The translations under genes and the position numbers were made by a program. The notes under the pieces were generated by a model. The model did no database searches. It was not told where the DNA came from and saw only the letters and a list, made by a program, of their open reading frames with translations. A DNA stretch of 64,000 bases from Chryseobacterium herbae (GTDB lineage: Bacteria > Bacteroidota > Bacteroidia > Flavobacteriales > Weeksellaceae): assembly GCF_025154075.1 (NCBI RefSeq), contig NZ_JAOAMU010000001.1, positions 1,209,608 to 1,273,607 of the forward strand. The letters are read 5' to 3'. Positions 29,703-63,962 of the stretch are shown one piece after another; position 1 is the first letter of the stretch, and each line of letters opens with the position of its first letter.

Positions 29703-29742
29703 TATGGTTGCTGCATCATCCCCCACCTTGGTATCCTGTTAA

Positions 29743-30909: not shown

Positions 30910-30911
30910 AA

Positions 30912-32283: not shown

Positions 32284-32289
32284 ATCAAT

Positions 32290-38950: not shown

Positions 38951-38957
38951 TTTTTTA

Positions 38958-40583: not shown

Positions 40584-40593
40584 AGTGATAATT

Positions 40594-40680: not shown

Positions 40681-40684
40681 TGTT

Positions 40685-40765: not shown

Positions 40766-40803
40766 TGCAAAGTTATTTTAGAAGTGCGCATTCTTTTTAC
40801 GCA
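40766..40803 (-). promoter_or_regulatory. Shared 38-base RNA-island promoter, site D (Y-RNA array)
   Basis: Read on the minus strand, TGCGTA and TGCGCA boxes lie 13 bases apart with AAAAG between them, followed at fixed distance by TAACTTTGCA, which contains a TAnnTTTG -7 box. There is no TTTG -33 box, as expected for an activator-dependent promoter. The sequence AAAATAAACT just before the boxes also recurs at site C. Y-RNA 1 starts about ten bases downstream. Confidence 0.82.
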
Positions 40804-43889: not shown

Positions 43890-43927
43890 TGCAAAGTAAA
43901 AACAGTATTGCGCATTCTTTTTGCGTA
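43890..43927 (-). promoter_or_regulatory. Shared 38-base RNA-island promoter, site A (Ro60)
   Basis: On the minus strand TACGCA and TGCGCA lie 13 bases apart around AAAAGAA; TTACTTTGCA follows at the same distance as in the three other sites. The Ro60 start codon is 60 bases downstream, leaving a leader of about 50 bases. Confidence 0.85.
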
Positions 43928-46324: not shown

Positions 46325-46326
46325 AT

Positions 46327-49023
46327 CTATTTTTTTAGAAGAAGATTGCAGATTTTTTTCAGACTGGAATTCTCTTTCCAGCTATTCAGTTTTTCTTTTA
46401 AGTTTTTATCGGCTTCAGATTGGTTTAAAGCCAGAACCTCGTGGTAAATATCCAATATTTTTTTAAGATTGGTAACAGGTGTTTCCATCTGCAGCAAAAT
46501 ATGGGTAAGAAGCTGTTCCAGCGCCAGATTGTGGTCTTTGCTGACATTGAGCATCTGATGCTGTACCAGATCTGTAAATCTCTTCACAGGTGCCCATTCC
46601 AGTTTCTCGTGCAGACCGGTCACACGGCCCAGCTGTACATTATCCAGTACTTTATGGGAAACATGTTCCAGCCAGATCTCAGCAGCAGTTCCACGAATGA
46701 CTTTGTCTCCGTCCAGGAAAATGGTTCCCAAAAACAGATATCCCATCGCATCCAGAGGCTTTTTCATCTGATGAAGGGCCTGTGCTGTATTCAGAACAAG
46801 ACCTCTTTCGTAAACCTCTGCTATTCCGGAATAAAACAGGCAGTCTTTGATGATCTTCGCAAAAACATTTCCAAGGGTATTCGGGAAACTCCACATGAAT
46901 GAAGGGGTTTCAGAGAAATGTTTCTGTTCTGCAATAAAATATTCCAGAAAAAGCGGATGTTCTCTTTTTTTCAGGTGATATTTAGGAACGTTGATATTAA
47001 GTTCAACCGGATAATAGGAGTTCTTTTTACTGTCAATAGTTTTCCATTCATATGAACCGGTAAGAAATTCTTTTGGAATATCATCATAACCGAAATCTTT
47101 GAATTCTTTAAAAACGGTTCCGGGAGAACGGGTAATTCCAGCAGTCATCCACCATGACGGATGTTCAAATTTTCCTTTCGGTGCTGCATTTGGATTAAAA
47201 AAGAAAAGAAGCAAGTCTTTATATTCTCCTTTCAGTTTTTCTTCAACCCGTTTTAATCTGTCTGATGTTCTTTCAAGGGAACAACGTTGTAATGCCAACT
47301 GTACATCCAGATCATCAGGCTTTTTATTTTCGTTCTGATAGATTTCAAATCTTTCTACCAATGCGTCCGGGCTTACCCAACATGGCTCATGGGTTACCGT
47401 AGATAACAACGGAGTTTTATCTCCTGATTTTATCTTATTGAAAACCTGTACCGCAATATGTTTGAAGGGCTTCATAGCCAGACCTCCGGCATAGATATCC
47501 TGAATTGGTCCTAACTTTTTATGGTAGGTGGAATATACCTCTCTTGTAGCTTCGTCCTCCTGCGTCCTTTTGTATATTTTTTCTAGATTCTTAAGCTGAA
47601 CCGGAAATTTTTCCAATAAAGAAAGTCCGTAATTAATGATTAGATTACACAGCAGTACATTAAAATGATGTACTTCCCATTTAGCAATGGTTTTACACGC
47701 TTTCTGAAACACGGGTTCAAAAAGTTTTACGGAGGCGTCGTCTGCGTCATCTGCAAACTTGACAAGTCCACCGAGCGCTAAATCATAATAATACGTCCCC
47801 GGCTTTTCTATCGCCTGCGGAAGGAAAAACATCAGGTCTTCAAAACTTGCAGGCTCCTTAGCCAGGCTTTCTTCGCTGATTAGCTCCAGCTTTTCCTGCT
47901 GTACAGCATCCAGTTCTAACTGTTTATTGTCAATGTATTGAGCAAGTCCTGGTCTTACATTAGCCAAAACATTATCAGCATAATGCGATAACGCTTCCTT
48001 GATATCTTCGGAAACGGGGATGTATTTCTGGATGATCTTTGCGGCTTTGGTCTGTATGCTTTCATCTTTGCTTACAAACGCAGCACTCAAAGCCATTCCA
48101 AGGTTTTCAGTATCGGTTTTCTTTTTCTGAAAGATATTTTCTGTCACAACAAGACTGGCTGCCACAACGGTTTTGACCTCTGAACTTAACAGGTTCGGAA
48201 GGAAATGAGAAAACTCACTGGTTTTAAATTCCGGCTCTGTAACTATTTTTTTCAGATGAGCCAGCATGGTATTCACCGCCTTCGACTGTACAGAGGCTAA
48301 TCCGGCCATCAGTTCGTCCTGAAGCATGATTAGTTCTTCGTTTGAAGGTTTCAGGATATTGAATGCATCCATGAACCATCCGGTCACGTTTTTATTAAAA
48401 TTTCTATTGGCTGCCAAAAGGCATTCTTTGAGAAATCTTTTTCTTTCAATTTTATTTTCGGCAATCAGCTTTTGAACTAAAGGAAGCCATTCTCTTGTAA
48501 AAGGAAGTGATTTCGATGGAAATTCGCATAAATACCAAAAGTGGGTATTCAGCGTCTCCGGAGATTTATCCAGGTCATAAGGCTGAAGGCTTAAATGGTA
48601 TCCCAGTAGCTCAGGTCTGGGTTTTACATAGCCTTTTTCTGCCCATTCCAGAATATCCTGATAATTAAATGCTGTAAATTCAGCTTCTATAGAATCATTG
48701 ATAAATTCTGAAAACCACGGTGGGCATCCCCATTCCAGTATTTTACGGGTCTGTTCTTTGTCTCTGAAAAGGCTCCAGTAGTTTTTCCCGTAATGCTTCT
48801 GATCCATGCAGACAAATGATGCGATATCAATGATAGAATGCTGATCTGCAGAACCGGCAGTGTGGTAGGAGTTTTTCGTCATTACAATCTTACTGATCTC
48901 CCGGTCCAGCTTTTTTATCGTGGGTACCAGGGTTTTTCTTTCTTCTGTGCTTAGCTGCTTCAGAAACGGAATAATCTCATGTGCTTTTTCCTCATTAAGG
49001 ATCTCATAAAGTCTTTCTTTCAT
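46327..49023 (-). CDS. DUF6493-family protein, 898 aa
   Basis: This large, mostly helical cytoplasmic protein has HEAT-like repeats (LGMALSAAFVSKDESIQTKAAK near residue 310). It starts LYEILNEEKAHEIIPFLKQL and ends with NLKKILDIYHEVLALNQSEAD. It shares the overall plan and several motifs with the 848-residue protein encoded upstream, so the two are diverged paralogues. Its start overlaps that gene by 20 bases and the SWIM gene follows two bases later. No catalytic motif is visible. Confidence 0.82.
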   Translation of the reverse strand: MKERLYEILNEEKAHEIIPFLKQLSTEERKTLVPTIKKLDREISKIVMTKNSYHTAGSADQHSIIDIASFVCMDQKHYGKNYWSLFRDKEQTRKILEWGCPPWFSEFINDSIEAEFTAFNYQDILEWAEKGYVKPRPELLGYHLSLQPYDLDKSPETLNTHFWYLCEFPSKSLPFTREWLPLVQKLIAENKIERKRFLKECLLAANRNFNKNVTGWFMDAFNILKPSNEELIMLQDELMAGLASVQSKAVNTMLAHLKKIVTEPEFKTSEFSHFLPNLLSSEVKTVVAASLVVTENIFQKKKTDTENLGMALSAAFVSKDESIQTKAAKIIQKYIPVSEDIKEALSHYADNVLANVRPGLAQYIDNKQLELDAVQQEKLELISEESLAKEPASFEDLMFFLPQAIEKPGTYYYDLALGGLVKFADDADDASVKLFEPVFQKACKTIAKWEVHHFNVLLCNLIINYGLSLLEKFPVQLKNLEKIYKRTQEDEATREVYSTYHKKLGPIQDIYAGGLAMKPFKHIAVQVFNKIKSGDKTPLLSTVTHEPCWVSPDALVERFEIYQNENKKPDDLDVQLALQRCSLERTSDRLKRVEEKLKGEYKDLLLFFFNPNAAPKGKFEHPSWWMTAGITRSPGTVFKEFKDFGYDDIPKEFLTGSYEWKTIDSKKNSYYPVELNINVPKYHLKKREHPLFLEYFIAEQKHFSETPSFMWSFPNTLGNVFAKIIKDCLFYSGIAEVYERGLVLNTAQALHQMKKPLDAMGYLFLGTIFLDGDKVIRGTAAEIWLEHVSHKVLDNVQLGRVTGLHEKLEWAPVKRFTDLVQHQMLNVSKDHNLALEQLLTHILLQMETPVTNLKKILDIYHEVLALNQSEADKNLKEKLNSWKENSSLKKICNLLLKK

Positions 49024-51550
49024 TTGTTTTTAATTTGATGATAATTTTTTTCAGGTTATTTTCGTTTTTCCATTCTTTCAGCTTGACAGCCACCACATCA
49101 TCAACTTCGGACTGATTAAGGTGCAGCAGTTCGTAGTACATCTCTAAAATCTTTTTGAGATTAAAAACGGGATGATCTATCGCTATAAGAATGGGTATCA
49201 ATAGTTTTTCAAGAGCGCGGTTATGACTGGGATTCAATCCTATAAGGCCGGAAAGTCCATCCGTAAGTCTTTTCACCGTAGCCAGTCCGTGACTGATCTT
49301 TTCGCCGATCATTATTCCTAATATTCCGGGGTCAAAATCCTCTGAAACTATCTTGTGAATTATCGCTTCAAAAGCCGTACCAGAGAAGGTTTTATCCTTA
49401 CTGAACATGGCCGCGGACAGGAATAAATAATGCGCCTTCTGGCATGGAAGATCCAGCTTCATCCATGCATCTAAAAATTCGGTATTGGTCCGGCTGTCAT
49501 ATTGATAAACGGCATTGGACAATGTTTCGTTGTATTTTTTAGCAAAAACAGACCCCGAAAAGCACGGAGCTGTGTATAAAATCCTGATCAGATCCTGATC
49601 ATAAATACCGTGATAAGAGTTAAATAAATGATCCAGCAGAGGGGCATCACCAGGAATTTCTTTATTTTCAATCGTTACCGTAAGCTCCGGAATTTCTTCT
49701 GTTACGTAGCCTTTATATATTTTTCTGATGCCTAATTTTCTATCAAAACTGCCCTCCAGATGAGATTCCTCATAAAGGTTTTTATAATATTCCGGATTAA
49801 AAACAGGATCCAGCAATTGTACATATTCTTCGGTAAGCTGTTTTTGAGCGTACTTTTGGGCTTCTCCGAAATTCTCTTTTCGTACCCGAAGCACCGCTCT
49901 CTGTAGATCGAAAGGAACCGGAAATTCTTTCTGATCCTGGTATATTTTTAATTTATCGATTAGTAGACGGATATCAATCCAGCAAGGTGTATGATCCGCG
50001 ATTGAGAGTAACGGAAGGATTTTCTCTTGTTTTAAAAGATCAAATATTCCCAATAGGAACTGATGATAGGCTTTAAAGATCAAAGGTGTGCGTTTTCCAA
50101 TCCAGTTTTCAAGGGCTGGAAATTCTTTTTTTGCTTCATTGAGTACCGGAGCTCCTTTTTTCAGTTTTAAAAGTCCATAGGCAATAAAAAATGTAGCATA
50201 CAAATGGTGCATCCCTACACTTCCTTTTACTTTAAGAGCTGCTTTGAAAGCCGGTTCCAGCTGTGTAAAGTGTTCTTCACTGATCTCTGTATTGAACCTC
50301 AGCAGAGCATCCAGGAAAAGATCAAAATCATTGGGTTCGTTTTTACTGAAAACCTGTGGTGCAAAGAATATAAAATCACTGATGTTTTCAATAGGAGAAA
50401 TCGGTTGAGATACATGCCAAGAATCTAGTTCTTCAGTTTCTACAAGTTCAGTAGCTTCATTATTATTGCTGATAAGGAATTTTTCAAGCGCTATTTTTGT
50501 GTCCGAAAGCAAAGATTCTGTGTAAGCCTGTAATTCATTCTTAAACTTTTCAGAATTGGAATCGCCATATTTCAAAATAATCTTTACGGCCTTAGTCTGT
50601 ATAGAAGCGTCTTTGCTCATAAAAACAGGCAGTACAAAAAGACAGATTTCTTCCCTGTATTTTTTATTATTCTTCGCTATTTTCTCAACAGTCTGAAGCC
50701 ATGTATTCAAAATATTTTTGATCTGAAGACCAGGTAACGTCGATGAAGCATTAAGAAAATCGTTTTCCTTGAAATCAGAATCTGTAATGACAGAATTTAA
50801 AATTTTAAGTACCGGAACAAAAAGCGACTGTTGTGGAGCATGGAAAACTGAAAAGAGACTGTCCTGGAGTGCTAAAACCTCCTTTGAGGAAGGTTCTAAG
50901 TAAGAAAAAAGTTCCAGAAACCACATATTATGATCTTTGGAAAAATTGAGACTCACTGCATCCAGACAGGATTGTAAAACTTTTAAACGGTCAATTTTAT
51001 TTTTATGGATCAGATCTTTAAAGAAAACTTTCCAGTTTTTTTCGTTTTTATAATGGTAAGTGATATTGGAGTTATACTGAAAAAGGAGCCAGATATGAGC
51101 ATCCAGTGTTTCAGGATAGGTAAAAAGAATTTCGTCAGCGGTATGGTTTGAAACCAGTGATTCCGAAAGAAGATGGGCAGCGATTTCATCATTCAGGGTA
51201 AGATAACCTGTGTGTTGCCATTCCATGACTTTCAGATAGTCTATATTCCTGAGAAACTGATAGCTGTTTCCGAGCCATTCCGGAGTATAAGATTCGAATA
51301 ATTCATCAGCGAGATGTATTGGTACAGCGTAATAACCGGGTGACAGTTTTGCGTATTCGTCCCGGTGAGTGCTGCAGGCCAGAGCGGCAAGCATAGAAAC
51401 GTGATTGTGCCCCCAGTCTTTATTTAAAAATTTCTTTAAAACAACTGCAGTTTCTTTCTTTTCTTTTGGGGTCAGCTTTATGAGAAAAGGAACAATTTCC
51501 TTGATTCTATAATTTAAATAAATCGACTTCAATTCATCTTCAATAAGCAT
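49004..51550 (-). CDS. DUF6493-family protein, 848 aa
   Basis: This paralogue of the downstream 898-residue protein shares LKKILEMYYELLHLNQSEVD near the C-terminus and VFMSKDASIQTKAVKIILKYG in the helical middle. It starts with IEDELKSIYLNYRIKEIVPFLI. Both probably form elongated helical scaffolds. It is the first gene of the SWIM cluster or follows the 752-residue gene, which ends 84 bases upstream. I see no promoter signature. Confidence 0.82.
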   Translation of the reverse strand: MLIEDELKSIYLNYRIKEIVPFLIKLTPKEKKETAVVLKKFLNKDWGHNHVSMLAALACSTHRDEYAKLSPGYYAVPIHLADELFESYTPEWLGNSYQFLRNIDYLKVMEWQHTGYLTLNDEIAAHLLSESLVSNHTADEILFTYPETLDAHIWLLFQYNSNITYHYKNEKNWKVFFKDLIHKNKIDRLKVLQSCLDAVSLNFSKDHNMWFLELFSYLEPSSKEVLALQDSLFSVFHAPQQSLFVPVLKILNSVITDSDFKENDFLNASSTLPGLQIKNILNTWLQTVEKIAKNNKKYREEICLFVLPVFMSKDASIQTKAVKIILKYGDSNSEKFKNELQAYTESLLSDTKIALEKFLISNNNEATELVETEELDSWHVSQPISPIENISDFIFFAPQVFSKNEPNDFDLFLDALLRFNTEISEEHFTQLEPAFKAALKVKGSVGMHHLYATFFIAYGLLKLKKGAPVLNEAKKEFPALENWIGKRTPLIFKAYHQFLLGIFDLLKQEKILPLLSIADHTPCWIDIRLLIDKLKIYQDQKEFPVPFDLQRAVLRVRKENFGEAQKYAQKQLTEEYVQLLDPVFNPEYYKNLYEESHLEGSFDRKLGIRKIYKGYVTEEIPELTVTIENKEIPGDAPLLDHLFNSYHGIYDQDLIRILYTAPCFSGSVFAKKYNETLSNAVYQYDSRTNTEFLDAWMKLDLPCQKAHYLFLSAAMFSKDKTFSGTAFEAIIHKIVSEDFDPGILGIMIGEKISHGLATVKRLTDGLSGLIGLNPSHNRALEKLLIPILIAIDHPVFNLKKILEMYYELLHLNQSEVDDVVAVKLKEWKNENNLKKIIIKLKTNERKTL

Positions 51551-54062: not shown

Positions 54063-55574
54063 TTATTTTGTGAAAATTTCTTTCAGCTGGGAAACGATGT
54101 TGCTGTTTCCTGAAACGGTAATATCACCAATCTTTTCTGCGATTTTTTCCATATACTCCATTTCTTTCAGCTTCCATAAAACTTCATTTTCTTCCATCAG
54201 TTTTGCGGTGTTCAGCAAACTTCTTGTGGAAGCCGTTTCTTCACGGCGCATGATGCTGTTGGCCTGAGCTTTTTTCTCAGCGATCAAAACCTGGTTCATA
54301 ATTTCCTTCATTTCACCGGTTAAGATCACGTCACGGATACCCGCATCAAAAGCTCTGATACCTAAATCTCCGGCTTTTTCACCCAGATTTTCAAGAATTT
54401 CTTTACCTACCGAATCTTTTTTCAGCAACAGTTCATCCAATGTTAAAGCGCCTACAAACTCACGCAATGCCAGCTGCATCAGAATATACAATTGCTTATC
54501 ATATTCTTTATTTTCCATTAATGCTTTTTCGATACTCTGTACCTGAAAACTCACATAAAAATTGATTCTTAGCATCGCTTTATCCTTAGTCAAAAGCTCC
54601 TGACCTGCAATTTCCATTTGCTGCATTCGCATATCAACCGTGTTGACATCGATGGAAATTTCATTATTCCAAAAACTGTAGGTTCCCGCTTCCAGAGTGT
54701 TCACCAATTTACCACCAATGATCAATAGTCCTTTATATTGATTCGGTACAATAAATTTTCTTACGTAATGTCTCAGCCTTGAATTTTCCAGGATGGTATT
54801 CGGGATATCCTCTGTGATTTCAACTTTCGTTAAATCCACTTTCTGGAAAGCCCTTTCTGTAATATCTGTCCAGAATGCATATTGTCCTACGTTCAGAACA
54901 TCCTTTAAAGTACCGTTTTCATACATCAAAAGGATTTCACCATCTTTTACCTCTACGATTTCCAAAAGGTTTTTCAGGGTTTCATTTTTTAATAAAGCAG
55001 CTACATTTTCATGCGTTCCAAACTGGGATTTTATCTCATAATTGGGATCGATTAGCTTAACTTCAACTGAAATTTCATTGTTCCAGAAGGAGTAAGTACC
55101 GCTTTCCAACACCTGAGTCAGTTTTCCGTCAATTAACAATAATCCTTTATAGTGATGAGGCACAACAAACTTTCTTACAAAGCTTTTCACCTTTATATTT
55201 TCCAGAATTGGTTTAGAAATTTCTTCCGGGATCTCAATCTTTGTTAAGTCTATTTTTTGAAATTCTCTGTTGACCATTCCTTTCCAGAATGCATACTGTC
55301 CAACAGTCAAAACATCTTTAAGAGTTCCGTTTTCATGCACTAAAATGATTTCTCCGTCTTTTACTTCTACCGTTTCCAAAAGGCTTTTCAGCGTTTCATT
55401 TTTCAACAGAATCGGTAAATCTTCACCAGCTTCAAACCGGGATTTCATTTCATAGATTGTGACCGATTTATTTCCGAAGACATAATGATTACCTTCTTTG
55501 AGAACTTCAATTAAGTTTCGGTTTTTGAAGACCAAACCCATTTGGTATGCTTTAATGTGTACATTTTTTATCAT
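54063..55574 (-). CDS. Slipin (SPFH/band 7) protein with duplicated N-terminal domain
   Basis: The C-terminal part (from about residue 310) is an SPFH domain: LTKDKAMLRINFYVSFQVQS, LALREFVGALTLDELL and a helical AEKKAQANSIMRREETASTR oligomerisation stretch. The first 310 residues are built from two near-identical units of 138 residues (about 5-142 and 143-280) plus the start of a third. Repeated signatures are LLKNETLK.LLE.VEVKDGE, GTLKDVL.VGQYAFW and GTYSFWNNEIS. Slipins are found in RNA-repair neighbourhoods with Ro60 or RtcB. Its start overlaps the stop of a 116-residue frame (ATGA). Confidence 0.88.
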   Translation of the reverse strand: MIKNVHIKAYQMGLVFKNRNLIEVLKEGNHYVFGNKSVTIYEMKSRFEAGEDLPILLKNETLKSLLETVEVKDGEIILVHENGTLKDVLTVGQYAFWKGMVNREFQKIDLTKIEIPEEISKPILENIKVKSFVRKFVVPHHYKGLLLIDGKLTQVLESGTYSFWNNEISVEVKLIDPNYEIKSQFGTHENVAALLKNETLKNLLEIVEVKDGEILLMYENGTLKDVLNVGQYAFWTDITERAFQKVDLTKVEITEDIPNTILENSRLRHYVRKFIVPNQYKGLLIIGGKLVNTLEAGTYSFWNNEISIDVNTVDMRMQQMEIAGQELLTKDKAMLRINFYVSFQVQSIEKALMENKEYDKQLYILMQLALREFVGALTLDELLLKKDSVGKEILENLGEKAGDLGIRAFDAGIRDVILTGEMKEIMNQVLIAEKKAQANSIMRREETASTRSLLNTAKLMEENEVLWKLKEMEYMEKIAEKIGDITVSGNSNIVSQLKEIFTK

Positions 55575-55921
55575 TTTATTATATTTTTAAGGGTTATTAT
55601 TTCAATTAAAAAGAGAAAACCGAGTTTCTTTCTTCCAAAAAATGGCGGAAGCAAAGGAGTTTCAAAAAGCTCCAATCGTTTCAAAATACTGTTCTTAAAC
55701 TTCTTTTTCCAATCCGTAAGATCTTGGGCGTGTCCCTGGCCACCGCTGAAAGCAACAACCTGGGTCGCTACGTTCACTGCTATCTTTTTTGCGTACAAAA
55801 AAGGATATCCGTTACCATCGCTCACGCGGAAAACCGTCCTCATTAGAAAATTCCGTTCAATTGGGGTATTCATCAACTGAATTTCACTTTCAGAAAAAAT
55901 CTTTCTTACTGGCTTTTTCAA
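55571..55921 (-). CDS. Possible small protein coupled to slipin
   Basis: This frame of up to 116 codons has no ATG at its 5' end: it starts at TTG 55921, or at the internal ATG at 55873 (MNTPIERNFLMRTVF). Its TGA stop overlaps the slipin ATG. The middle (KKIAVNVATQVVAFSGGQGHAQ) looks protein-like, but I know no family. It lies between the tRNA-like RNA terminator and slipin, so it would be translated only from readthrough transcripts. It may instead be untranslated leader. Confidence 0.4.
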   Translation of the reverse strand: MKKPVRKIFSESEIQLMNTPIERNFLMRTVFRVSDGNGYPFLYAKKIAVNVATQVVAFSGGQGHAQDLTDWKKKFKNSILKRLELFETPLLPPFFGRKKLGFLFLIEIITLKNIIK

Positions 55922-56000
55922 AAATGTTGATTCAACAACTGAAAAAACTCAGATTTTCTCTAAAGGAATGTTTTTAAAGAAAAACATTGAAAACTTTGTA

Positions 56001-56024
56001 AAAAATAGATTTTCAGTCTATTTT
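56001..56024 (-). terminator. Terminator between tRNA-like RNA and slipin operon
   Basis: On the minus strand AAAATAGA pairs with TCTATTTT around CTGAAA and runs into T residues. Slipin expression from site C needs readthrough. Confidence 0.8.
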
Positions 56025-56026
56025 CA

Positions 56027-56100
56027 ACTACATGGGAAATGTAGTGCTCTAACCAACTGAGCTATCTCAAACTTGTTGAGAGAAGGAGTCGAACCTTCGC
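56027..56100 (-). ncRNA. Permuted tRNA-like module with anticodon-like arm
   Basis: Order on the RNA: T arm GAAGG-TTCGACT-CCTTC, acceptor TCTCAA/TTGAGA closed by CAAGT, D arm GCTC-AGTTGGTTA-GAGC, then a hairpin CTACA-TTTCCCA-TGTAG that occupies the anticodon-arm position. Together this is almost a complete circularly permuted tRNA. The 7-base loop has T at the second position but C before the last base, so it is not a usual anticodon loop. Confidence 0.7.
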
Positions 56101-56198
56101 AAAAAAAACTATTTACTCTAACCTCCTGAGTTATATTTCCCCTTAAGGAAACAGAAGGATTCGAACCTCCGTACAATAGCTAATGGTAGAAGTTTTTT
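56101..56198 (-). ncRNA. Permuted tRNA-like module, upstream copy
   Basis: A stem AAAAAA/TTTTTT and then CTATT/AATAG encloses T arm GGAGG-TTCGAAT-CCTTC, acceptor TTTCC/GGAAA with a short loop, and D arm ACTC-AGGAGGTTA-GAGT. After the first stem strand comes CTTCTACC, where the Y-RNA array has CTTCG. The layout equals that of Y-RNAs 4 and 7. Confidence 0.65.
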
Positions 56199-56360
56199 GG
56201 TCAACTCCTCAAACCTTCGGGCCAAGTTGAACAGAACGAAAACAATGTTTTTCAACAAATTCTTCTGCAATGGTGTTATACAGAAACACACAACCTGACT
56301 TGCCTGATATGGTAACTGAAACCTGTTTTTCAAAATTTCAGTGTTGTTTCATTTTGATAA

Positions 56361-56398
56361 TGCAAAGTAAGAATATAATTACGCAATGTTTTTGCGCA
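56361..56398 (-). promoter_or_regulatory. Shared 38-base RNA-island promoter, site C (tRNA-like RNA/slipin)
   Basis: On the minus strand TGCGCA and TGCGTA lie 13 bases apart around AAAACAT; TTACTTTGCA follows at the standard distance. AAAATAAAC precedes the boxes as at site D. The divergent MarR gene starts 154 bases away. Confidence 0.85.
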
Positions 56399-56551: not shown

Positions 56552-56977
56552 ATGATAAGTACCGAATTATTATTTTTAATAAACATTAATAAGCTGCAGT
56601 CGGTGATAGCAAGGAAATTTGATTCTTTGAGTGTACATGGGCTGGGAATGAATGATTTTGTGATTCTTTATATTCTTTATCATTCTTCTGAGAGTAAAAT
56701 GCGAAGAATAGATCTTGCCGAAAAAACAGGCCTTACTGCTTCCGGAATTACAAGGTTGCTTAATCCTTTAGAAAAAATCGGACTCGTATCCAGGGAAGCT
56801 AATGAAAGGGATGCAAGGGTAAGTTATGTTGTCATAACAGAGATTGGAAAAAAGGTCTTTGGAGAAGCTCTTAAAACCGCTGAAAACATCAGTCAGGAAA
56901 TCCTTTCACCCAAGAAAAGCAAAGCGCTTCAGGCTGCCTCCGAATTTATTCATCAACTTGGAGGCAATATTCAATAA
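56552..56977 (+). CDS. MarR-family transcriptional regulator
   Basis: This 141-residue winged-helix protein has MRRIDLAEKTGLTASGITRLL near residue 50 and the wing GLVSREANERDARVSYVVITEIG near 75. MarR proteins respond to small phenolic or oxidising ligands. It is divergent from the tRNA-like RNA and is followed by an alpha/beta hydrolase gene, its likely target. TATATTTG at 56508-56515 is a good -7 box. Whether it also binds the island promoter is unknown. Confidence 0.9.
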   Translation: MISTELLFLININKLQSVIARKFDSLSVHGLGMNDFVILYILYHSSESKMRRIDLAEKTGLTASGITRLLNPLEKIGLVSREANERDARVSYVVITEIGKKVFGEALKTAENISQEILSPKKSKALQAASEFIHQLGGNIQ

Positions 56978-58329: not shown

Positions 58330-58881
58330 TTAGCTTTGGTTAAGACACCAATGCAAGATCTTCGCAATATTCTTAGCATCATCCACACCTCTGTGGTGCG
58401 TACCTTCCAGCTTGAGATTCAGCTCACCTAAAGCTCTGCTCATGCCTACACTTTTTCTTACGGTAGGATGCAACTGCCCGAACAATGTTTTCACATTGAT
58501 ATGGTCATCGCTCAATGGATAATCCACATTAAATCTTCTGGCCTGATTCTGAAGCATATTCAGGTCATAATTGCCGTAGCTCGCCCAGGTAAGGTCCTCA
58601 GAATCGTATTCTGCCCTCAGGATATCCAGAGCGTCTTCCAGCATGATGCCTTCATCATCCAGCATATTTTGTGTAATGGAAGTCAGTTCCGTACAGAAAG
58701 GACTCACCTTTGAATACTGTGGTTTCACTAAAATGCCTTCATTTTTGGAGACCTTGCCGGTAGCTGCATTCATGATGCACACCCCAATCTCAATGATCTC
58801 GCTTTCCTGGCCTCTGGGCGGTCTGTCATCCCAGCAGGTGGCTTCCAGGTCTATAATTAATATATTTTCTGTTGTTTTCAT
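58330..58881 (-). CDS. DEDDh 3'-5' exonuclease, ERI-1/KapD-like
   Basis: This 183-residue exonuclease has Exo I (IIDLEATCWDD, with the D and E ligands), Exo II (TWASYGNYDLNML) and Exo III (HHRGVDDAKNIAKIL, with H and D). The DLEATCW start places it with the ERI-1/KapD group that trims RNA 3' ends. A close paralogue lies at 59098 in the same orientation. In this neighbourhood a role in RNA 3'-end trimming is plausible (inference). Confidence 0.88.
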   Translation of the reverse strand: MKTTENILIIDLEATCWDDRPPRGQESEIIEIGVCIMNAATGKVSKNEGILVKPQYSKVSPFCTELTSITQNMLDDEGIMLEDALDILRAEYDSEDLTWASYGNYDLNMLQNQARRFNVDYPLSDDHINVKTLFGQLHPTVRKSVGMSRALGELNLKLEGTHHRGVDDAKNIAKILHWCLNQS

Positions 58882-59097
58882 TTGTTTAAAATTTAATGTT
58901 TTAAAAGAGGGAAGATGGGAGCTGGAGGATGGAAGTTAATTTTGTACATCCATCACTGCCTGTTTCCCGCAGTCAACTTTTCTCCTATCTTTTAAAGGAT
59001 GAAAGACTGGAGCTTGAGAATATTATCTTCCGGTATTGGACTTCCATCTTCTAATTTCTAATTTCTAGTTTCTAACCTCTAACTTCTATCTTTATTT

Positions 59098-59643
59098 CTA
59101 CTCCAAAATCTTCCGTAAAATTTTGGCTGCGTTGTAAGCATCGTCTGCTCCGCTGTGGTGGTTGCCTTCAAAATCCATTTTCAGGTACTCAAGAGCTCTT
59201 TTCAGACCTATCATTTTATGAAGTCTGAAATGCTCTCTGAATTCTTCCATCACATTCAGATATTGTCCGCCAAAAGGAATTTCTATTCCGAGCCAGTCAC
59301 ACTGCTCGAAAATCTGTTCCTTGTCGAAGTTTCCGAAACCCGCCCAGGTAAGATCTGAAGAATGATATTCATCCACAATCTTTTCACAGGCTTCTTCAAA
59401 ATAGATTCCTTTCTCTTCAATAAGCTGCGACGTAATTCCGGTCAGTTTTGTACAGAATTCATTGATCTCTGATCTTTCCGGAATAACATAAATGCTCTGT
59501 TTCTGGGAAATAGCTTTTGATTTTAAATCCAATTTGCAGATCCCTATTTCTATAATATCGACTTTCTCGCCAATGGGGATTCTGTCATTTTCCCAGCACG
59601 TAGCTTCCAGATCGATGATTAATATTTCGTTTGTTGTGTTCAT
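59098..59643 (-). CDS. DEDDh 3'-5' exonuclease, second paralogue
   Basis: This 181-residue enzyme has Exo I (IIDLEATCWEND), Exo II (TWAGFGNFDKEQI) and Exo III (HHSGADDAYNAAKIL), all ligands kept. It shares the ERI-1/KapD-like start with the downstream copy and similar length, so the pair arose by duplication. It is about 110 bases downstream of the phosphoesterase gene and may belong to the same transcription unit. Confidence 0.88.
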   Translation of the reverse strand: MNTTNEILIIDLEATCWENDRIPIGEKVDIIEIGICKLDLKSKAISQKQSIYVIPERSEINEFCTKLTGITSQLIEEKGIYFEEACEKIVDEYHSSDLTWAGFGNFDKEQIFEQCDWLGIEIPFGGQYLNVMEEFREHFRLHKMIGLKRALEYLKMDFEGNHHSGADDAYNAAKILRKILE

Positions 59644-59750
59644 AGTTTTTTTTTAAAATGTACAATGTAAAAAAGTACAATGTAAAATGTATTCATGATT
59701 GTGGTACTCCAGTGCAATTAGAATGGCTGACACTCATTACTCATTACTCA

Positions 59751-60317
59751 TTACTCCTCTCTTGCTCCAAACGGGGGTGTCCATTTTTTTCGCTTCATCA
59801 ATTCTTTGACTTCTTCGTAAGAAATCGGGTAAAAATCGTGACAATCTACTCCCACGTCGAAGCTTAAAGCCATTTCGTCATCGGGTAAAGTTCCGTGTGA
59901 ATGGCCGTAGAGCTGCCAAACTCCGCGGTGTGAACCGTTCCAGCTACGCATGGCGTAATGCAGGAGAATGATTTTCTGCTTGCCGTTGCTGTTTTCCGGT
60001 TCATCAATTTTCAATTCATGATAATCTCTTACGGATTCGAATCGTTTGGGGTATGTGAGTGCGGCACCTTCGTGGTTTCCTCTGATCAAATGGATATTCC
60101 CGTTTAATCTGTCGAGAATTTCTTTGGTGAAATCCGGTTTTCCTAAACTGATATCACCAAGGTGGTAGACGGTATCATTGGTACCGATTCTTTCATTCCA
60201 TCTTTTAATCAGTTCTTCATTCATATGGTCTAAGGACTCGAATGGTCTGTCTGAAAATTTTATAATATTAGCGTGACCGAAATGATGGTCCGCTGTAAAA
60301 AATATATTAGGTTTCAT
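59751..60317 (-). CDS. Calcineurin-like metallophosphoesterase
   Basis: This 188-residue single-domain enzyme has the metal motifs TADHHFGHANII near residue 7, HLGDISLGKP near 56, IRGNHEGA near 78 and LYGHSHGTLPDDE near 137. Members of this small group act as phosphodiesterases or on RNA-end phosphates; its neighbours (ligase, MBL, cREC) favour RNA ends, but this is inference. It is cytoplasmic. Confidence 0.85.
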   Translation of the reverse strand: MKPNIFFTADHHFGHANIIKFSDRPFESLDHMNEELIKRWNERIGTNDTVYHLGDISLGKPDFTKEILDRLNGNIHLIRGNHEGAALTYPKRFESVRDYHELKIDEPENSNGKQKIILLHYAMRSWNGSHRGVWQLYGHSHGTLPDDEMALSFDVGVDCHDFYPISYEEVKELMKRKKWTPPFGAREE

Positions 60318-60551
60318 TTTTTTTAATTTGTTTGTTTAATTTTTACTACGTTTTTTTCCACAGATTACACAGAATACACAGATGTTCTGTTGGTTTGTGT
60401 AAATAACTGGTGGTATTTGTTTTTAAAAAAAAGACCGTTTTTCTTAACCACGGATTTCACAGATTTACACAGATGATTGTGTTTATTTGTGAAGATTATT
60501 AGTGGTATTTGTGTTTAAGAAAATCAATTCTTTTGTAGTTCAAATTTTTAA

Positions 60552-61496
60552 TTAATTTTCGTGAAATGCTTTATAAAAAGCAGTTTCAATTTCAATAACA
60601 TCAGTTTCCGTATATCTTCTTGAAAAGTGAATAGGAACGGCTTCTTTCACCTGACAGTCTTTCATGATCTTTCCGGATGCAGAAGCAAAACTGTGATAAT
60701 TAAGTTTTGCAAATTCCTGATCTGAATCTTTATAAAAACTCTCAATATAAACGAGATCTGCCTCGCTGAACACCGTTTTTATTTTTTCATAATTTCCCTG
60801 ATCTGCCGCATGATCCATGATTACCCCAAGCCTGTAACCTTGATTTCTGGTCAGTAAATGAAACAGATCAGATGCTTTGTAAACGGTTCCTTCAATCTCA
60901 ATTTCCTTATCTTCATCATTATTTTCAAAAGCTGATTTCAGTTCGCTGATCCATTTTCCTTTTCTGAAGCCGGAAGCCTCTTCATGAAAGGTGACTGAAT
61001 CTTTTTCTTTGAACAGATACGCAATGGAATCTGTTTTATGATCAAGAATCGCAAACTCTACTTTTACCTGATCATCTTCAAAAAGGAAATTCTGCATCTT
61101 GATCAGTTCCAGGTTCCAGTGTGGTGGACGAAGGATATACACATTAATTTCTTCAGGGGAAATAATCTCCCGGATCTCATATTCAATAGCCTTTTCATCG
61201 ATCAGGTTCCAGGTGTAAGATTTTAACCGTGCTTCAATCTGGTGATGGATATTTTTCGGTCCGCAGATCACAACTCTTTCTCCGCTACCAATCTGATGTC
61301 TGAAAATTCCGTCAAAATTTGAAAAATGATCAATGTGTGTATGGCTGATGAATATTGCTGAAACCGACTGTATTTCTTTTACCGTCAGCTGGCTGGCTTC
61401 ACCGCAGTCACACAAATAGTGTTTTCCTGAATTTGCAATTTTTATTAATATGCTGATGTCTTCTCTCAAAAGACTTTTTATCTCTGCCAGTATCAT
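60552..61496 (-). CDS. RNase Z-like MBL-fold protein
   Basis: This 314-residue protein has the complete zinc motif IFISHTHIDHFSNFDG near residue 50 and later ligands IMDHAADQ near 228 and IHFSRRY near 290. The pattern is that of RNase Z-type nucleases or related phosphodiesterases acting on RNA or cyclic phosphates. It lies between the phosphoesterase and the RNA-ligase gene, 48 bases downstream of the latter but separated from it by a terminator. Confidence 0.85.
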   Translation of the reverse strand: MILAEIKSLLREDISILIKIANSGKHYLCDCGEASQLTVKEIQSVSAIFISHTHIDHFSNFDGIFRHQIGSGERVVICGPKNIHHQIEARLKSYTWNLIDEKAIEYEIREIISPEEINVYILRPPHWNLELIKMQNFLFEDDQVKVEFAILDHKTDSIAYLFKEKDSVTFHEEASGFRKGKWISELKSAFENNDEDKEIEIEGTVYKASDLFHLLTRNQGYRLGVIMDHAADQGNYEKIKTVFSEADLVYIESFYKDSDQEFAKLNYHSFASASGKIMKDCQVKEAVPIHFSRRYTETDVIEIETAFYKAFHEN

Positions 61497-61518
61497 TGTA
61501 TTAGTTTTTAAACATAAA

Positions 61519-61543
61519 AAAGTTCCGGTAAAAATATACCGAA
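61519..61543 (-). terminator. Terminator after RNA-ligase gene
   Basis: On the minus strand GTTTCGGTA pairs with TACCGGAAC (one wobble) around TATTTT and is followed by T residues. It separates the ligase gene from the MBL gene. Confidence 0.85.
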
Positions 61544-61544
61544 A

Positions 61545-62561
61545 CTAAACTTTAAGAGTCATCAACTCTTCTTTTATAAAATCAATCACTAAAGTATTCA
61601 ACTTTTTGTTGATTCTTTTCTGTTCGTCTTTTTCCACTGAAGCGAAAGCATCCGGAAAATCTTTTCCAAAGTCTTCCAAAATGTCCTGAGCAAAAAGACC
61701 TATGATCTTGCCTATCATTTTGGATTCAAATTCTCCAACTTTGCTCACCACATTATGCAATCTGTTGACTGTAGCATACCTTTGAATTTCCTCCCAGATA
61801 TTCTGAGCATTTTCTGAAAAATCTGCCGGTTTTTGGACTTCTTTACGGTCTTTTTTAACCATTTTAGATTTTTCGACCCACTTATCATTCTTGTTTTTAA
61901 GAATAACTCTGGCGCCATTTCCAAAATATCTGGTTTTCAAAGTTTTGACAATCGTTCCTTCGCACATATTGTTGTCCATTTCGGGTAGGCCCAACCAAGC
62001 CGGAATTTTAGAGTCAAATACATTCGGGAACCTCAAAGCGTCTTCCAAACTGCCCTGAAACACAATTTTAGCGTAGAAAAATCCGGTTTGCTCAAAAATC
62101 TGATTCACCACATCGGTGTCCAAATAAGTAGTTCCGTTCAACTTAATATCGAATCCATAAAATTCGTTATAAGGTGCGTATTCAATACCTTTTTGTACTT
62201 TGATAGCCTCTTTTACGGGTTCTACTTCTGTATGTTTGTAGCCACCTCCGAACAGTTCACCGTAGATCACTACCGTTTCCAATTCCGGGTGATTGGTTTT
62301 CACTTTTTGGAACAAATCAATTACATTTTTTCTGTAACGTTCTAAAATTTGGTGTGCGTTGTAGAATTTTTCATCCTTTTCAATAAAGGCGGTTCTCTTC
62401 GCGATCTTAATTTCCTTTCCATCGGTAAAGAAAGAGAAATTAGCCCCGTGAACCTTTTCCTGCACGATGAAAATCTCATCCCCAAAACCCTGCAACCTGA
62501 TCTGATCGATCACGCGGGTTTGGTAAGCATTTTCTATAGAGTTATATGTTTTGAAAATCAT
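61545..62561 (-). CDS. Rnl2-family RNA ligase
   Basis: This 338-residue ATP-dependent RNA ligase seals 3'-OH/5'-phosphate nicks through a lysyl-AMP intermediate. Nucleotidyltransferase motifs are visible: motif I EKVHGANFSF near residue 35 (lysine nucleophile), motif III YGELFGGGY near 100, motif IV EGTIVKTL near 203 and motif V VILKNKNDKW near 220. A C-terminal helical domain follows. It is headed by island promoter site B, with about 105 bases of leader. It is the core repair enzyme of the locus. Confidence 0.93.
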   Translation of the reverse strand: MIFKTYNSIENAYQTRVIDQIRLQGFGDEIFIVQEKVHGANFSFFTDGKEIKIAKRTAFIEKDEKFYNAHQILERYRKNVIDLFQKVKTNHPELETVVIYGELFGGGYKHTEVEPVKEAIKVQKGIEYAPYNEFYGFDIKLNGTTYLDTDVVNQIFEQTGFFYAKIVFQGSLEDALRFPNVFDSKIPAWLGLPEMDNNMCEGTIVKTLKTRYFGNGARVILKNKNDKWVEKSKMVKKDRKEVQKPADFSENAQNIWEEIQRYATVNRLHNVVSKVGEFESKMIGKIIGLFAQDILEDFGKDFPDAFASVEKDEQKRINKKLNTLVIDFIKEELMTLKV

Positions 62562-62587
62562 TTTTTTAGTTTTTAGTTTTTTTATAG

Positions 62588-62610
62588 TTTTCCAAAAGGC
62601 TTAGAACATT
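62588..62610. repeat. Direct repeat, copy 1 (relic of cREC 3' end)
   Basis: A 23-base segment that matches 62744-62766 with one change. On the minus strand it encodes VLSLLENYKK, almost the C-terminus of the cREC protein upstream. It lies in the leader of the RNA-ligase mRNA. Confidence 0.75.
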
Positions 62611-62673
62611 TTCCGGCCTTTAGATCAATCATCTTCAGATTCTTCCTTTCCATCATCTTTGATATGATGATTC

Positions 62674-62711
62674 TGCAAAGTAAAAAAGTAATTACGCAAT
62701 CTTTTTGCGCT
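62674..62711 (-). promoter_or_regulatory. Shared 38-base RNA-island promoter, site B (RNA ligase)
   Basis: On the minus strand AGCGCA and TGCGTA lie 13 bases apart around AAAAGAT; TTACTTTGCA follows at the same distance as in sites A, C and D. The RNA-ligase start is 113 bases downstream. Confidence 0.85.
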
Positions 62712-62727
62712 GATCTAAAAATGTTGA

Positions 62728-63099
62728 TTATAGTTGTTTAAAATTTTCCAAAAGGCTTAGAATATTCTTCTTGCCCACCGGATTCATGGAATGACAATAG
62801 AATTTTGGGAGATCCAAATAGTTATCCATACAATATTCTACCAGCCATTTGGCACAATCGTAGCCTGTTTTTTCAGTGTACTCGTCAGCATTGGGCTTCA
62901 GATAATGTACATCTGCCAGGTCATGGTCAAAAGAAATGAGTTCCGGAAGTCCTTTTTCCATAATTCTGTTAACAAACTGCTCGTAATTTCGAACAATATG
63001 CCAGTCTTTTTTGAGGAAAATATCCTGTTTGGTATAATGAAACGCCTCAATCGGGTATCTTATATCATCCAGAAATAATAATCTTTTGGTGATTTCCAT
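62728..63099 (-). CDS. Cyclic-phosphate-processing receiver-domain protein (cREC)
   Basis: This 123-residue protein has a receiver-like fold: RLLFLDDIRYPIEAF at the N-terminus with two Asp, ELISFDHDLADVHYL near residue 52 and FYCHSMNPVGKKNI near 102. The DHDL and HSMNP motifs define the cREC group, predicted to process 2',3'-cyclic phosphate RNA ends. It is next to the RNA ligase, which fits that role. Its last codons (direct repeat 2 at 62744) are duplicated in the ligase leader. Confidence 0.82.
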   Translation of the reverse strand: MEITKRLLFLDDIRYPIEAFHYTKQDIFLKKDWHIVRNYEQFVNRIMEKGLPELISFDHDLADVHYLKPNADEYTEKTGYDCAKWLVEYCMDNYLDLPKFYCHSMNPVGKKNILSLLENFKQL

Positions 63100-63146
63100 C
63101 CTGTTATTTTTTAAGCCCGAAAGCCTTTGAATACAATCTTTATTTA

Positions 63147-63632
63147 TTAAACCATCATATCAGCACAATTGGTACTTGCGAATGCGTAAGGTTTTGCTTT
63201 AAACACATAGCCCATTCCCAGAATATAGCCCATAGCATCTTTCAATGCTGCATTTGACTTAAAATCAGGGTCGGTATTAATGTCTGCGTGTACCTCCATT
63301 TCCACACCATAAGCATCCAGAACGGCACAGATAGCGTAAGCAATTTCTACGGATCTGTTGACCTCGTTCAGCATTCGTTCTTTGATACTGATCTTCTGTA
63401 TTTCTCTTTCTTTTCTGATAAAGGTAAACGCTCCTTTTCCCTCACGGACAAATACTACTGCTGTAGCATAATTGATCGCTTCGCCGTACACGTGGGAATC
63501 TGAGCCCACACATACTTTCAGGCGGTGACCGTTAGCCTGTTCGCGGATGATGGCTTCTTCTACCAGCTGTGTGATAGGTTTTTGGAAAAAATTTCCTTTC
63601 ATATTCTGCCATACTTCTTGTTGCGTTTCCAT
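63147..63632 (-). CDS. YkuK/DUF458 RNase H-like protein
   Basis: This 161-residue protein of the YkuK family has an RNase H-type fold with acidic residues in CVGSDSHVYG near residue 42, KERMLNEVNRSVEIA near 83 and VHADINTDPDFKSN near 113. The family is predicted to bind or cleave RNA. It lies 47 bases upstream of cREC and 120 bases downstream of the odd tRNA-Trp gene on the same strand, so tRNA and protein genes may be cotranscribed. Confidence 0.82.
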   Translation of the reverse strand: METQQEVWQNMKGNFFQKPITQLVEEAIIREQANGHRLKVCVGSDSHVYGEAINYATAVVFVREGKGAFTFIRKEREIQKISIKERMLNEVNRSVEIAYAICAVLDAYGVEMEVHADINTDPDFKSNAALKDAMGYILGMGYVFKAKPYAFASTNCADMMV

Positions 63633-63752
63633 TTTTTTACATGTTTTAAATTCTGTTTTATATTAATTTATCAATTGTGAATTGTCAATCCGTTTTACGG
63701 TCAATTTTATAAAATTCACCATTGACAATTCACTATTGACCTTCATTTTTTG

Positions 63753-63823
63753 CACTCCGAACCGGACTCGAACCGATACCATCAGTTTTGGAGACTGAGA
63801 TGCTGCCATTACACTATCAGAGT
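63753..63823 (-). tRNA. tRNA-Trp (anticodon CCA), atypical
   Basis: The 71-base minus-strand cloverleaf can be drawn in full: acceptor ACTCTGA/TCGGAGT with A1-U72 and G73, D arm GTGT-AATGGCA-GCAT, anticodon arm TCAGT-CTCCAAA-ACTGA, variable TGGT and T arm ATCGG-TTCGAGT-CCGGT. A1-U72, G73 and CCA are Trp identity elements. The CCA end is not encoded. The weak D arm differs from ordinary bacterial tRNA-Trp, so it may be a second, specialised copy. Confidence 0.75.
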
Positions 63824-63886
63824 TTTTTTATAATTGATGGATGATGATTGATAATTGATACTATCTTGTCATCATCATTTATGTTT

Positions 63887-63962
63887 TGGTGGAACAGACA
63901 GGAATCGAACCTGTACCTCTAGTTTTTCAGACTAGCGTGCACACCTTGTACACCACTCTTCC
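63887..63962 (-). tRNA. tRNA-Phe (anticodon GAA), atypical
   Basis: The 76-base minus-strand cloverleaf has acceptor GGAAGAG/CTGTTCC (one G-G mismatch at the fifth pair), D arm GTGT-ACAAGGTGT-GCAC, anticodon arm CTAGT-CTGAAAA-ACTAG, variable AGGT, T arm ACAGG-TTCGATT-CCTGT, A73 and an encoded CCA. The mismatch and unusual D arm set it apart from a standard tRNA-Phe. It lies 63 bases upstream of the tRNA-Trp gene. Confidence 0.78.

Follow-up and report, generated by a model that had tools for sequence, protein, structure and literature searches.

A 64,000-nucleotide stretch of the Chryseobacterium herbae genome (contig NZ_JAOAMU010000001.1, positions 1,209,608 to 1,273,607; hereafter the window) contains, at 58330-63632, a gene cluster around an Rnl2-type RNA ligase, and it also carries genes for a Ro60/TROVE protein and a slipin together with several tRNA-like RNAs. 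A 37-bp element ties Rnl2, Ro60 and slipin together here and links them to a distant locus encoding RtcB, RlaP and a WYL-domain protein. These parts probably belong to one RNA-repair, most likely tRNA-repair, network under the WYL protein, which would span RtcB/RlaP, Ro60 and its Y RNAs, slipin and the Rnl2 arm. The original prediction had described the Rnl2 cluster and the nearby RNA mimics as a full pathway for broken tRNAs. The cluster is indeed a conserved unit, and repair of RNA, most likely tRNA, with Ro60 and tRNA mimics is its best reading, but "full pathway" is overstated, since no AAA_33 kinase was found over the cut-off and breaks with a 5'-hydroxyl would fall to RtcB, encoded elsewhere.

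The shared element

Three segments of equal length and layout occur in the window, each with a palindrome, CGCAA-N5-TTGCG, followed at a fixed distance by TTACTTTGCA; in the Ro60 copy, one arm of the palindrome is ATGCG. These sites and a weaker copy are placed as follows.

62674-62710, minus strand: 37-bp element before Rnl2 (putative operator/promoter), 0 mismatches
56361-56397, minus strand: 37-bp element before the tRNA-like leader and slipin, 0 mismatches
43890-43926, minus strand: 37-bp element before Ro60, 0 mismatches
40766-40802, minus strand: weaker element copy, 23.8 bits (matrix), before two Y-RNA-like stretches and DUF6584

The search pattern was derived from the first three sites, so their zero mismatches are no evidence by themselves, and the shuffle comparison (three copies in the window, a mean of 0.00 over 100 shuffled versions) used a pattern written from those same copies. 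More than chance occurrence is supported independently by the fourth site in the genome and by those in relatives. Over the whole genome (5.13 Mb), four sites were found at up to 3 mismatches and 0 with the reversed-pattern control, the fourth lying about 400 kb off on the same contig, directly before RlaP. A weaker copy also precedes rtcB in that distant locus (L006, 6666-6702). The position weight matrix, trained on 35 sites of which some were mis-oriented, was used only to point at this rtcB promoter site and at 40766-40802, and both were then inspected by eye.

The motif TTACTTTGCA is nearly invariant in 113 distinct sites; these had been pre-selected at up to 3 mismatches, so the consensus is inflated at the seed positions. 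The -7 promoter element of Bacteroidota has been reported as TANNTTTG (PMC6847099). In the element, the palindrome is placed roughly at the expected position of the -33 element and is followed by an imperfect -7 box, an arrangement which would suit an activator-dependent promoter.

Element targets in the family and order

At up to 3 mismatches, the element is present in 189 of 320 genomes of the family; among 296 genomes of the order it occurs in 33, with 0 of the 247 outside the family, many of which are small genomes. An ordinary promoter match is rejected on this last count and on the looser-pattern control given below. The target survey covered 46 of the 47 sites listed for genomes G015-G035 (G035:C146 was left out), and all 46 are unique. 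Ro60, slipin, RtcB, RlaP, Rnl2 or a TROVE paralogue lies downstream of 43 of them, and in 41 one of these genes (the paralogue being 31% identical) is the next recognised gene within about 0.8 kb. The 43 include L134, which precedes a shortened Ro60, and L151, which is followed by the two leader T-loops and a slipin remnant. Where slipin is the target, its leader always lies in between.

A looser pattern was run in 27 genomes chosen by the author and gave 36 sites, of which 29 were examined for targets. Among the 29, 28 precede rtcB, rlaP, Ro60, a TROVE paralogue or the gene after rtcB; in genome G223, which is without this RtcB, the site precedes the gene that normally follows rtcB. A thirtieth site, L191, has a 32%-identical TROVE match downstream. 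At L116, L147, L173 and L191, a second TROVE protein (31-32% identical) is encoded near RlaP with an element copy upstream. The leaders at L128 and L143 look alike by eye, and the element copies at L128, L143, L130 and L189 may mark further regulon members.

The Rnl2 arm was compared in 77 loci, which are the matches listed (76 from Chryseobacterium and one from a Flavobacteriaceae bacterium; ligases up to 96% identical); these overlap in species with the G-labelled genomes, 9 of the loci do not reach the full 21 kb, and gene presence was scored by tblastn at 1e-8. Since the element precedes Rnl2 in only 11 of them, the Rnl2 arm is not a core target, and an ancestral role of Rnl2 as a target is ruled out by the 66 loci without the element at up to 5 mismatches.

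The distant RtcB/RlaP locus and a candidate regulator

The second RNA-repair locus of this genome (L006, C2:796000-812000), about 400 kb off, encodes RtcB, the protein after RtcB, the WYL regulator candidate, RlaP, an R2K ATP-grasp protein and a second RlaP-like protein. RtcB matches PF01139 with 122.5 bits (cut-off 27), and RlaP matches PF10127, named by Pfam the "RNA repair pathway DNA polymerase beta family", at 2.2e-70 and 237.6 bits (cut-off 23). The candidate regulator has WYL (44 bits) and WCX (32 bits) domains, both above cut-off. The gene after rtcB (L006 3126-4880) and L006 9773-10423 gave no Pfam match at E<=0.001 and none over cut-off at E<=5.

Presence of the element follows that of the WYL protein. 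Among 147 genomes outside the genus, 24 of the 25 with the element have a WYL orthologue at E<1e-130, a line set after the values had been seen, against 4 of the 122 without it; relaxing the line to E<1e-100 gives 24 of 25 and 6 of 122. Of the four element-negative genomes with WYL, two (G221, G287) gain a site with the looser pattern. Within the genus, nine genomes are without the strict element, and seven of them gain a looser-pattern site; G056 and G089, which have no such site, show only poor WYL matches (2e-16 and 4e-63). For control, the looser pattern was also applied to 43 family genomes that lack a close WYL orthologue, among which G292 was counted with its match of 2e-115; it matched in one of them, at two sites that both lack the CGC half. 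The element is found in 0 of five genomes outside the genus that have RtcB (E<1e-190) without WYL (G274, G292, G307, G310, G311), and it is retained in G223, the only one with WYL and without this RtcB.

The positions of the genes point the same way. WYL lies within 1 kb of an element site in 14 of 25 genus genomes tabulated, and 22 of 30 looser-pattern loci show a WYL match, with WYL divergent from the site in 19 and the site belonging to rlaP downstream of WYL in the remaining three. One copy commonly sits between WYL and a divergent rtcB. WYL factors have been predicted to sense cyclic-ended RNA (PMC9503650, PMC4012209).

A regulator other than WYL, for example the MarR protein encoded at 56552-56977 or an alternative sigma factor, could also be proposed to bind the element. 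Within the window, the MarR gene and the slipin leader are divergently oriented, and the near-invariance of TTACTTTGCA in the pre-selected sites could be a sigma-factor signature. MarR is ruled out as the regulator by its presence in just 18 of the 77 Rnl2 loci, and slipin and Ro60 sites occur without it; the element instead tracks WYL, often from between WYL and divergent rtcB, which leaves binding by a non-WYL regulator quite improbable. Control by the WYL protein thus remains the preferred reading.

Genes of the Rnl2 cluster

The seven genes named in the original prediction are intact open reading frames (ORFs) on the minus strand, placed where it had put them, and Ro60, slipin and tRNA-like RNAs lie with them inside 25 kb. 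In their order along the minus strand they are as follows.

63147-63632, minus strand: YkuK-like RNase H-fold protein (YkuK/RNaseH_like PF04308, 6.3e-31), the first protein gene past the tRNA array
62728-63099, minus strand: cREC, a predicted cyclic-phosphate-processing receiver domain (PF20274, 1.2e-23, 84 bits, cut-off 27)
61545-62561, minus strand: Rnl2-type ATP-dependent RNA ligase (RNA_ligase PF09414, 8.5e-23; T4_Rnl2_C PF18043, 8.4e-22)
60552-61496, minus strand: RNase Z-like metallo-beta-lactamase (MBL; PF12706, 2.2e-8; resembles RNase Z, PRK02126 217.1 bits)
59751-60317, minus strand: calcineurin-like phosphoesterase (PF12850, 2.9e-7, and PF00149, both above cut-off)
59098-59643, minus strand: KapD-like DEDDh 3'-5' exonuclease 1 (RNase_T PF00929, 7.1e-15)
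58330-58881, minus strand: KapD-like DEDDh 3'-5' exonuclease 2 (RNase_T PF00929, 1.4e-19)

On the same strand, the slipin leader lies about 2 kb, slipin about 3 kb, Ro60 about 14 kb and the Y-RNA array about 19 kb from the cluster. The ligase narrowly exceeds the cut-off of NCBIfam TIGR02307 (198.4 against 197.15 bits), and its residues 2-330 align with T4 RNA ligase 2 at 8.8e-29, with EKVHGANF over EKIHGTNF. The nucleotidyl-lysine motif KxxG and the downstream EGTIVK and VILKNKN are in register with the T4 enzyme, and we take EKVHGANF, EGTIVK and VILKNKN to have the roles of ligase motifs. The MBL stays below the curated cut-offs (PRK02126, 217.1 against 315 bits; RNase Z TIGR02651, 111.9 and 110.6 against 292.95 bits), and a canonical RNase Z is present elsewhere in the genome (C2:653191, 305.3 bits against 110.6 for the window MBL). 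The two KapD-like proteins are 43% identical to one another and score 73.7 and 90.9 bits, below the cut-off of 169 of the KapD equivalog NF005838.

These families might also suggest an RNA-based conflict system, in which the regulon would serve mainly as anti-phage or anti-toxin immunity and the Y RNAs would be decoys for anticodon nucleases instead of repair cofactors. For instance, cREC, RNA ligases and TROVE have been found in jumbo phages and read as counter-defence (PMC7824862), and the tRNA-like domain of YrlA was suggested to be a competitive inhibitor of an anticodon nuclease (PMC7790460). A PADLOC scan of the seven cluster proteins, Ro60, slipin and the WYL protein, however, matched only generic DEDDh-exonuclease, WYL and Cas3c models, all of them CRISPR-linked and Cas3c being the match of the WYL protein, and seven of the ten proteins had no match; in addition, the cluster is kept in 77 loci. 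We therefore consider a primary role in conflict rather unlikely, and repair is preferred.

A promoter segment probably captured before Rnl2

The element before Rnl2 sits in a segment of about 156 bp between two 33-bp repeats made from the cREC tail.

62578-62610: 33-bp direct repeat, copy flanking the promoter segment, 88% identical to 62734-62766
62734-62766: 33-bp direct repeat, other copy, within the 3' end of cREC, start-to-start spacing 156

In two element-free relatives (L047, L053), a single copy of the cREC tail lies directly before Rnl2. In the 11 element loci, the gap between cREC and Rnl2 is 152-166 nt in four and 696-755 nt in seven, while in the 60 element-free loci with a cREC match it is up to 16 nt in 26, 563-570 nt in 21 and of other length in 13; the longer gaps seem by eye to contain an extra ORF. 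The step of about 150 nt in both gap classes fits an added segment. Given the repeat flanks and the single tail copy in element-free relatives, it is most likely that an element-bearing promoter was inserted into a tRNA-linked Rnl2 operon. The ten ligases most similar to that of the window (88-96%) all have the element, plus one at 85%, and it is on this distribution, not on phylogeny, that calling the capture young rests.

tRNA array and conservation of the cluster

Conservation of the cluster in other genomes had been set beforehand as a check on the prediction, and the gene order is kept among the 77 Rnl2 loci. YkuK and Rnl2 are present in all 77, KapD2 in 75, cREC in 71, the phosphoesterase in 67, KapD1 in 65 and MBL in 49, and Ro60 lies inside the fetched flank in 33. 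The cluster directly follows a tRNA array on the same strand, with 12 tRNA genes in this genome, the last two of which lie in the window.

63752-63962, minus strand: tRNA-Trp (63752-63823) and tRNA-Phe (63887-63962), the last two genes of a tRNA array extending past the window

Across relatives, the Rnl2 cluster mainly forms the end of a run of tRNA genes. Of the 77 loci, 76 have a tRNA no more than 600 bp upstream of YkuK, with a gap of 59-195 nt in 68, and 978 of 987 tRNAs within 4.5 kb upstream are on the strand of the cluster. No TAHHTTTG box was found in the tRNA-YkuK gap in any of the 77 loci. Such short same-strand gaps without TAHHTTTG make it likely that the cluster is transcribed by read-through from the upstream array.

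The linkage could be explained by housekeeping tRNA maturation, with YkuK-cREC-Rnl2-MBL-phosphoesterase-KapD as the processing tail of a tRNA operon and the proximity of Ro60 incidental. Besides the constant tRNA neighbourhood just described, the RNase Z-like and KapD-like genes would suit 3'-end processing, and the 66 element-free loci fit this explanation as well. However, bacterial tRNA maturation is not known to require a ligase or a cyclic-phosphate enzyme. Furthermore, the genome has a canonical RNase Z at another place, 28 of the 77 loci gave no MBL match, and in the clade of the window the ligase bears the element common to Ro60 and RlaP. Maturation is thus an unlikely primary function, and repair of tRNA is favoured over it.

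Ro60 and the Y-RNA array

Beyond Ro60 and a DUF6584 gene, six Y RNAs of 128-153 nt form an array.

42313-43830, minus strand: Ro60/TROVE protein (PF05731, 5.2e-28, 98.8 bits, cut-off 23)
40694-40757, minus strand: possible short Y RNA without tRNA module, weak (model R1 11.8 bits, E 0.49; GTGCCGT box by eye)
40597-40681, minus strand: possible short Y RNA, weak (model R1 29.8 bits, E 4e-5; ATGCCGT box by eye)
40059-40637, minus strand: DUF6584 protein, between Ro60 and the Y RNAs (PF20225, 5.3e-45)
39623-39750, minus strand: Y RNA 1, tRNA-like (model R1 70.8 bits)
39474-39616, minus strand: Y RNA 2, permuted tRNA-like (model R1 110.3 bits, training member)
39260-39403, minus strand: Y RNA 3, permuted tRNA-like (model R1 103.3 bits, training member)
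39126-39254, minus strand: Y RNA 4, no T-arm (model R1 49.2 bits, training member)
38958-39110, minus strand: Y RNA 5, permuted tRNA-like (model R1 107.8 bits, training member)
38817-38951, minus strand: Y RNA 6, tRNA-like, other arm order by eye (model R1 51.7 bits)

Ro60 scores 25 bits against the Rsr equivalog NF041674 and does not reach its cut-off of 900. The original prediction had spoken of many RNA mimics, which is borne out by the six Y RNAs, the two weak matches and the double tRNA-like leader of slipin. The weak matches stand directly after the element at 40766-40802 and are possibly short Y RNAs without the tRNA module.

A 5' box, GTG[TC]CGT...AC[TA]TCG, which was defined from the RNAs of the window itself, is exact in five of the six Y RNAs; shuffled sequence gives 0.08 per 64 kb. 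It was also found in 30 of 117 relatives' loci scanned, with 1-7 per locus, mostly in loci extending past Ro60. For the Y-RNA consensus, 42 of 91 RNAs were aligned, chosen by the author, and 17 of its 19 pairs show compensatory changes; the RNAs had been trimmed by terminal-stem complementarity (91 of 120 boxes passed), which biases the covariation seen in that stem. No selection for pairing was applied to the inner stems or to columns 10/170; these columns form U-A in 26 members and C-G in 15, although only A or G was allowed in column 170 and only T or C in column 10. Among 111 unique boxes, a T-arm and a D-arm can both be recognised by pattern in 35, and the T-arm comes first in every one of these, which is the permuted order of YrlA; the array RNAs thus have the YrlA-type architecture of a terminal stem with a permuted tRNA-like domain.

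The covariance model R1 recovers the six Y RNAs, four of them training members, and the slipin leader at 36 bits, and the matches listed elsewhere in the genome are partial and reach at most 33.5 bits; in this whole-genome search, 150 of 1515 candidates were scored, and the weak match at 40597-40681 escaped it. At Rfam gathering scores, the array RNAs are unnamed in the window and in five array-bearing relatives; in the array, the YrlA model RF02553 scores 37.0, 34.4 and 25.5 bits against a gathering score of 69. Pfam gave nothing above cut-off at E<=5 for the window ORFs at 40829, 41533 and 51638.

Slipin and its tRNA-like leader

The slipin gene is preceded by a structured leader RNA.

56011-56210, minus strand: slipin leader RNA with two permuted tRNA-like modules (T-arm, acceptor-like stem, D-arm) and an anticodon-like arm
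54063-55574, minus strand: slipin/SPFH protein (Band_7, 5e-27)

Two T-loops are at fixed positions in 24 of 24 distinct blocks with a site within 1 kb of slipin, and leader blocks have 2.6 T-loops per kb, compared with an overall density of 0.27 per kb. When 20 of these 24 blocks are aligned, 18 of 43 consensus pairs show a compensatory change. The tRNA model scores 33.1 bits at 55996-56071, above its gathering score of 29, in a permissive search (the default search did not list it), and 36.8 bits, also above the gathering score, in the slipin leader of L095. The YrlA model RF02553 before slipin reaches 30.6 bits, below the 69 bits of its gathering score. A sub-threshold match of 32.5 bits to Flavo-1 RNA also lies at 55759-55835, between this leader and slipin. 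In four of five relatives scanned (L052, L089, L101, L103), full Flavo-1 matches precede the Y-RNA arrays by 1-2.5 kb, on the other strand.

The proposed network and points against it

RtcB takes breaks with a 5'-hydroxyl, whereas Rnl2 needs a 5'-phosphate and a 3'-hydroxyl; the chemistry of both ligases and of cyclic phosphates is established. In the network proposed here, the WYL regulator, encoded beside rtcB, would bind CGCAA-N5-TTGCG in front of the -7-like box, sense damaged RNA ends and switch on RtcB, RlaP, Ro60 with the Y RNAs, and slipin; in the clade of the window it would also switch on Rnl2-MBL-phosphoesterase-KapD-KapD. RtcB would seal 5'-hydroxyl to 3'-phosphate or cyclic phosphate ends, and RlaP may be a nucleotidyltransferase working on damaged 3' ends. 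Ro60 and the Y RNAs might provide a platform, with the tRNA-shaped RNAs as docking mimics or decoys, and slipin might be a membrane scaffold with its own double tRNA-like leader. In the Rnl2 arm, which is probably read from the upstream tRNA array too, cREC would open 2',3'-cyclic phosphates, the phosphoesterase would then remove the phosphate, the KapD-like exonucleases and the RNase Z-like MBL would trim, and Rnl2 would seal 3'-hydroxyl to 5'-phosphate. Since the two ligases take opposite ends, a single switch controlling them would cover both break types, namely metal-independent (5'-hydroxyl, cyclic phosphate) and metal-dependent (5'-phosphate, 3'-hydroxyl) breaks.

Several observations weigh against this network. 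The element precedes Rnl2 in 11 of 77 loci, the remaining 66 being without one at up to 5 mismatches, and the -7-like box, TTACTTTG, is one base off TANNTTTG. Three of the 46 surveyed sites (L128, L130, L143) lie before ORFs that are unknown or unrelated, and one of the 29 looser-pattern sites (L189) is without a recognised target. For the regulator, no helix-turn-helix family was reported in the WYL protein at E<=0.001, and the Fisher P of 2e-22 for WYL and element overstates independence, as the genomes share ancestry. The looser pattern, too, finds no element in G276 and G289, although both have WYL; in G193 an element precedes Ro60, but a close WYL orthologue and this RtcB are lacking; and G128, G142, G149 and G152 carry the element with weaker WYL matches (2e-41 to 3e-111), the first three assemblies being 73-89% complete and G152 99% complete. 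As to the enzymes, the phosphoesterase, MBL and KapD-like proteins match broad families only, and an AAA_33 kinase above the Pfam cut-off, present in 14 of 14 control genomes, was not found in this genome. This last result would limit Rnl2 to breaks that already have a 5'-phosphate, so that it probably does not act on 5'-hydroxyl breaks unless an unrecognised kinase exists.

A bolder form of the proposal, which we advance tentatively, is a dispersed dual-chemistry regulon run by WYL in the family of Chryseobacterium, with RtcB and a newly captured Rnl2, Y RNAs specific for tRNA classes and the slipin leader as a sensor in cis. If this were true, the Y RNAs of the Ro60 particle would each be a mimic or decoy for a different tRNA class, the double tRNA mimic in the leader of the slipin messenger may sense tRNA damage or Ro60 in cis, and the segment of about 156 bp before Rnl2 would show a second ligase caught being recruited to a damage response. 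The element, the candidate sensor and the target list make the cellular roles of bacterial Ro60, Y RNAs, cellular Rnl2 and RlaP experimentally tractable via six promoters, and multi-member arrays of tRNA-mimic Y RNAs offer a handle on whether Y RNAs guide Ro60 to particular tRNAs.

Other genes in the window

Between slipin and Ro60, at 44981-51550 and on the same strand, there are two tandem DUF6493-DUF7824-DUF7825 proteins and a SWIM zinc-finger protein; DUF6493 matches occur in 39 and 37 of the 77 Rnl2 loci, and SWIM in 26. Genes for TerC, two TerD, TelA, a ComF-like phosphoribosyltransferase and HAD at 26895-32958 make up a tellurite-resistance-type stress cluster.

Comparison with known systems

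No description of the regulon, the element or the Chryseobacterium Y RNAs was found in full-text searches of open-licence papers. Burroughs and Aravind reportedly proposed in 2016, from gene context, that the same enzyme families act in RNA repair; overlap with that work is likely, and the gene-context link is hence not claimed as new. Neighbourhoods of cREC, RNA ligases and TROVE described by the Aravind group contain the same enzyme families, with RNA repair proposed from gene context (PMC7824862, PMC9503650); cRec was linked to RNA ligases there, and TROVE was regarded as a repair platform with a tRNA-like partner (PMC7824862). The main texts of PMC7824862 and PMC9503650 make no mention of KapD or YkuK. 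The cis-element, its genomic targets, the regulator candidate and the tRNA-array linkage go beyond these gene-context predictions. Among single enzymes, T4 RNA ligase 2 aligns with the window Rnl2 over nearly its full length, with the nucleotidyl-lysine motif in register; unlike it, the window Rnl2 is cellular, linked to a tRNA array and encoded in a genome without an AAA_33 kinase over cut-off.

The array RNAs resemble YrlA (RF02553) in having T-arm, acceptor-like stem and D-arm in that order, closed by a long terminal stem. They differ from it in falling below the Rfam gathering score, in the invariant GTG[TC]CGT...AC[TA]TCG box of the Chryseobacterium array RNAs and in forming arrays of up to seven recognisable boxes per locus with differing tRNA-like middles.

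The nearest described system is the rsr-yrlBA-rtcBA operon of Salmonella, which is controlled by RtcR/sigma-54 and active upon tRNA damage (PMC7790460). The RtcR domain PF06956 has 0 matches in the C. herbae genome, the E. coli control being positive. As in Salmonella, a Ro60 orthologue, a tRNA-like Y RNA and RtcB would be under one switch, here a proposed one. Unlike the Salmonella operon, the regulator candidate is a WYL protein, six Y RNAs are present against two in the name of the operon, and the set of targets, spread over at least two loci, extends to slipin, RlaP and, in one clade, Rnl2.

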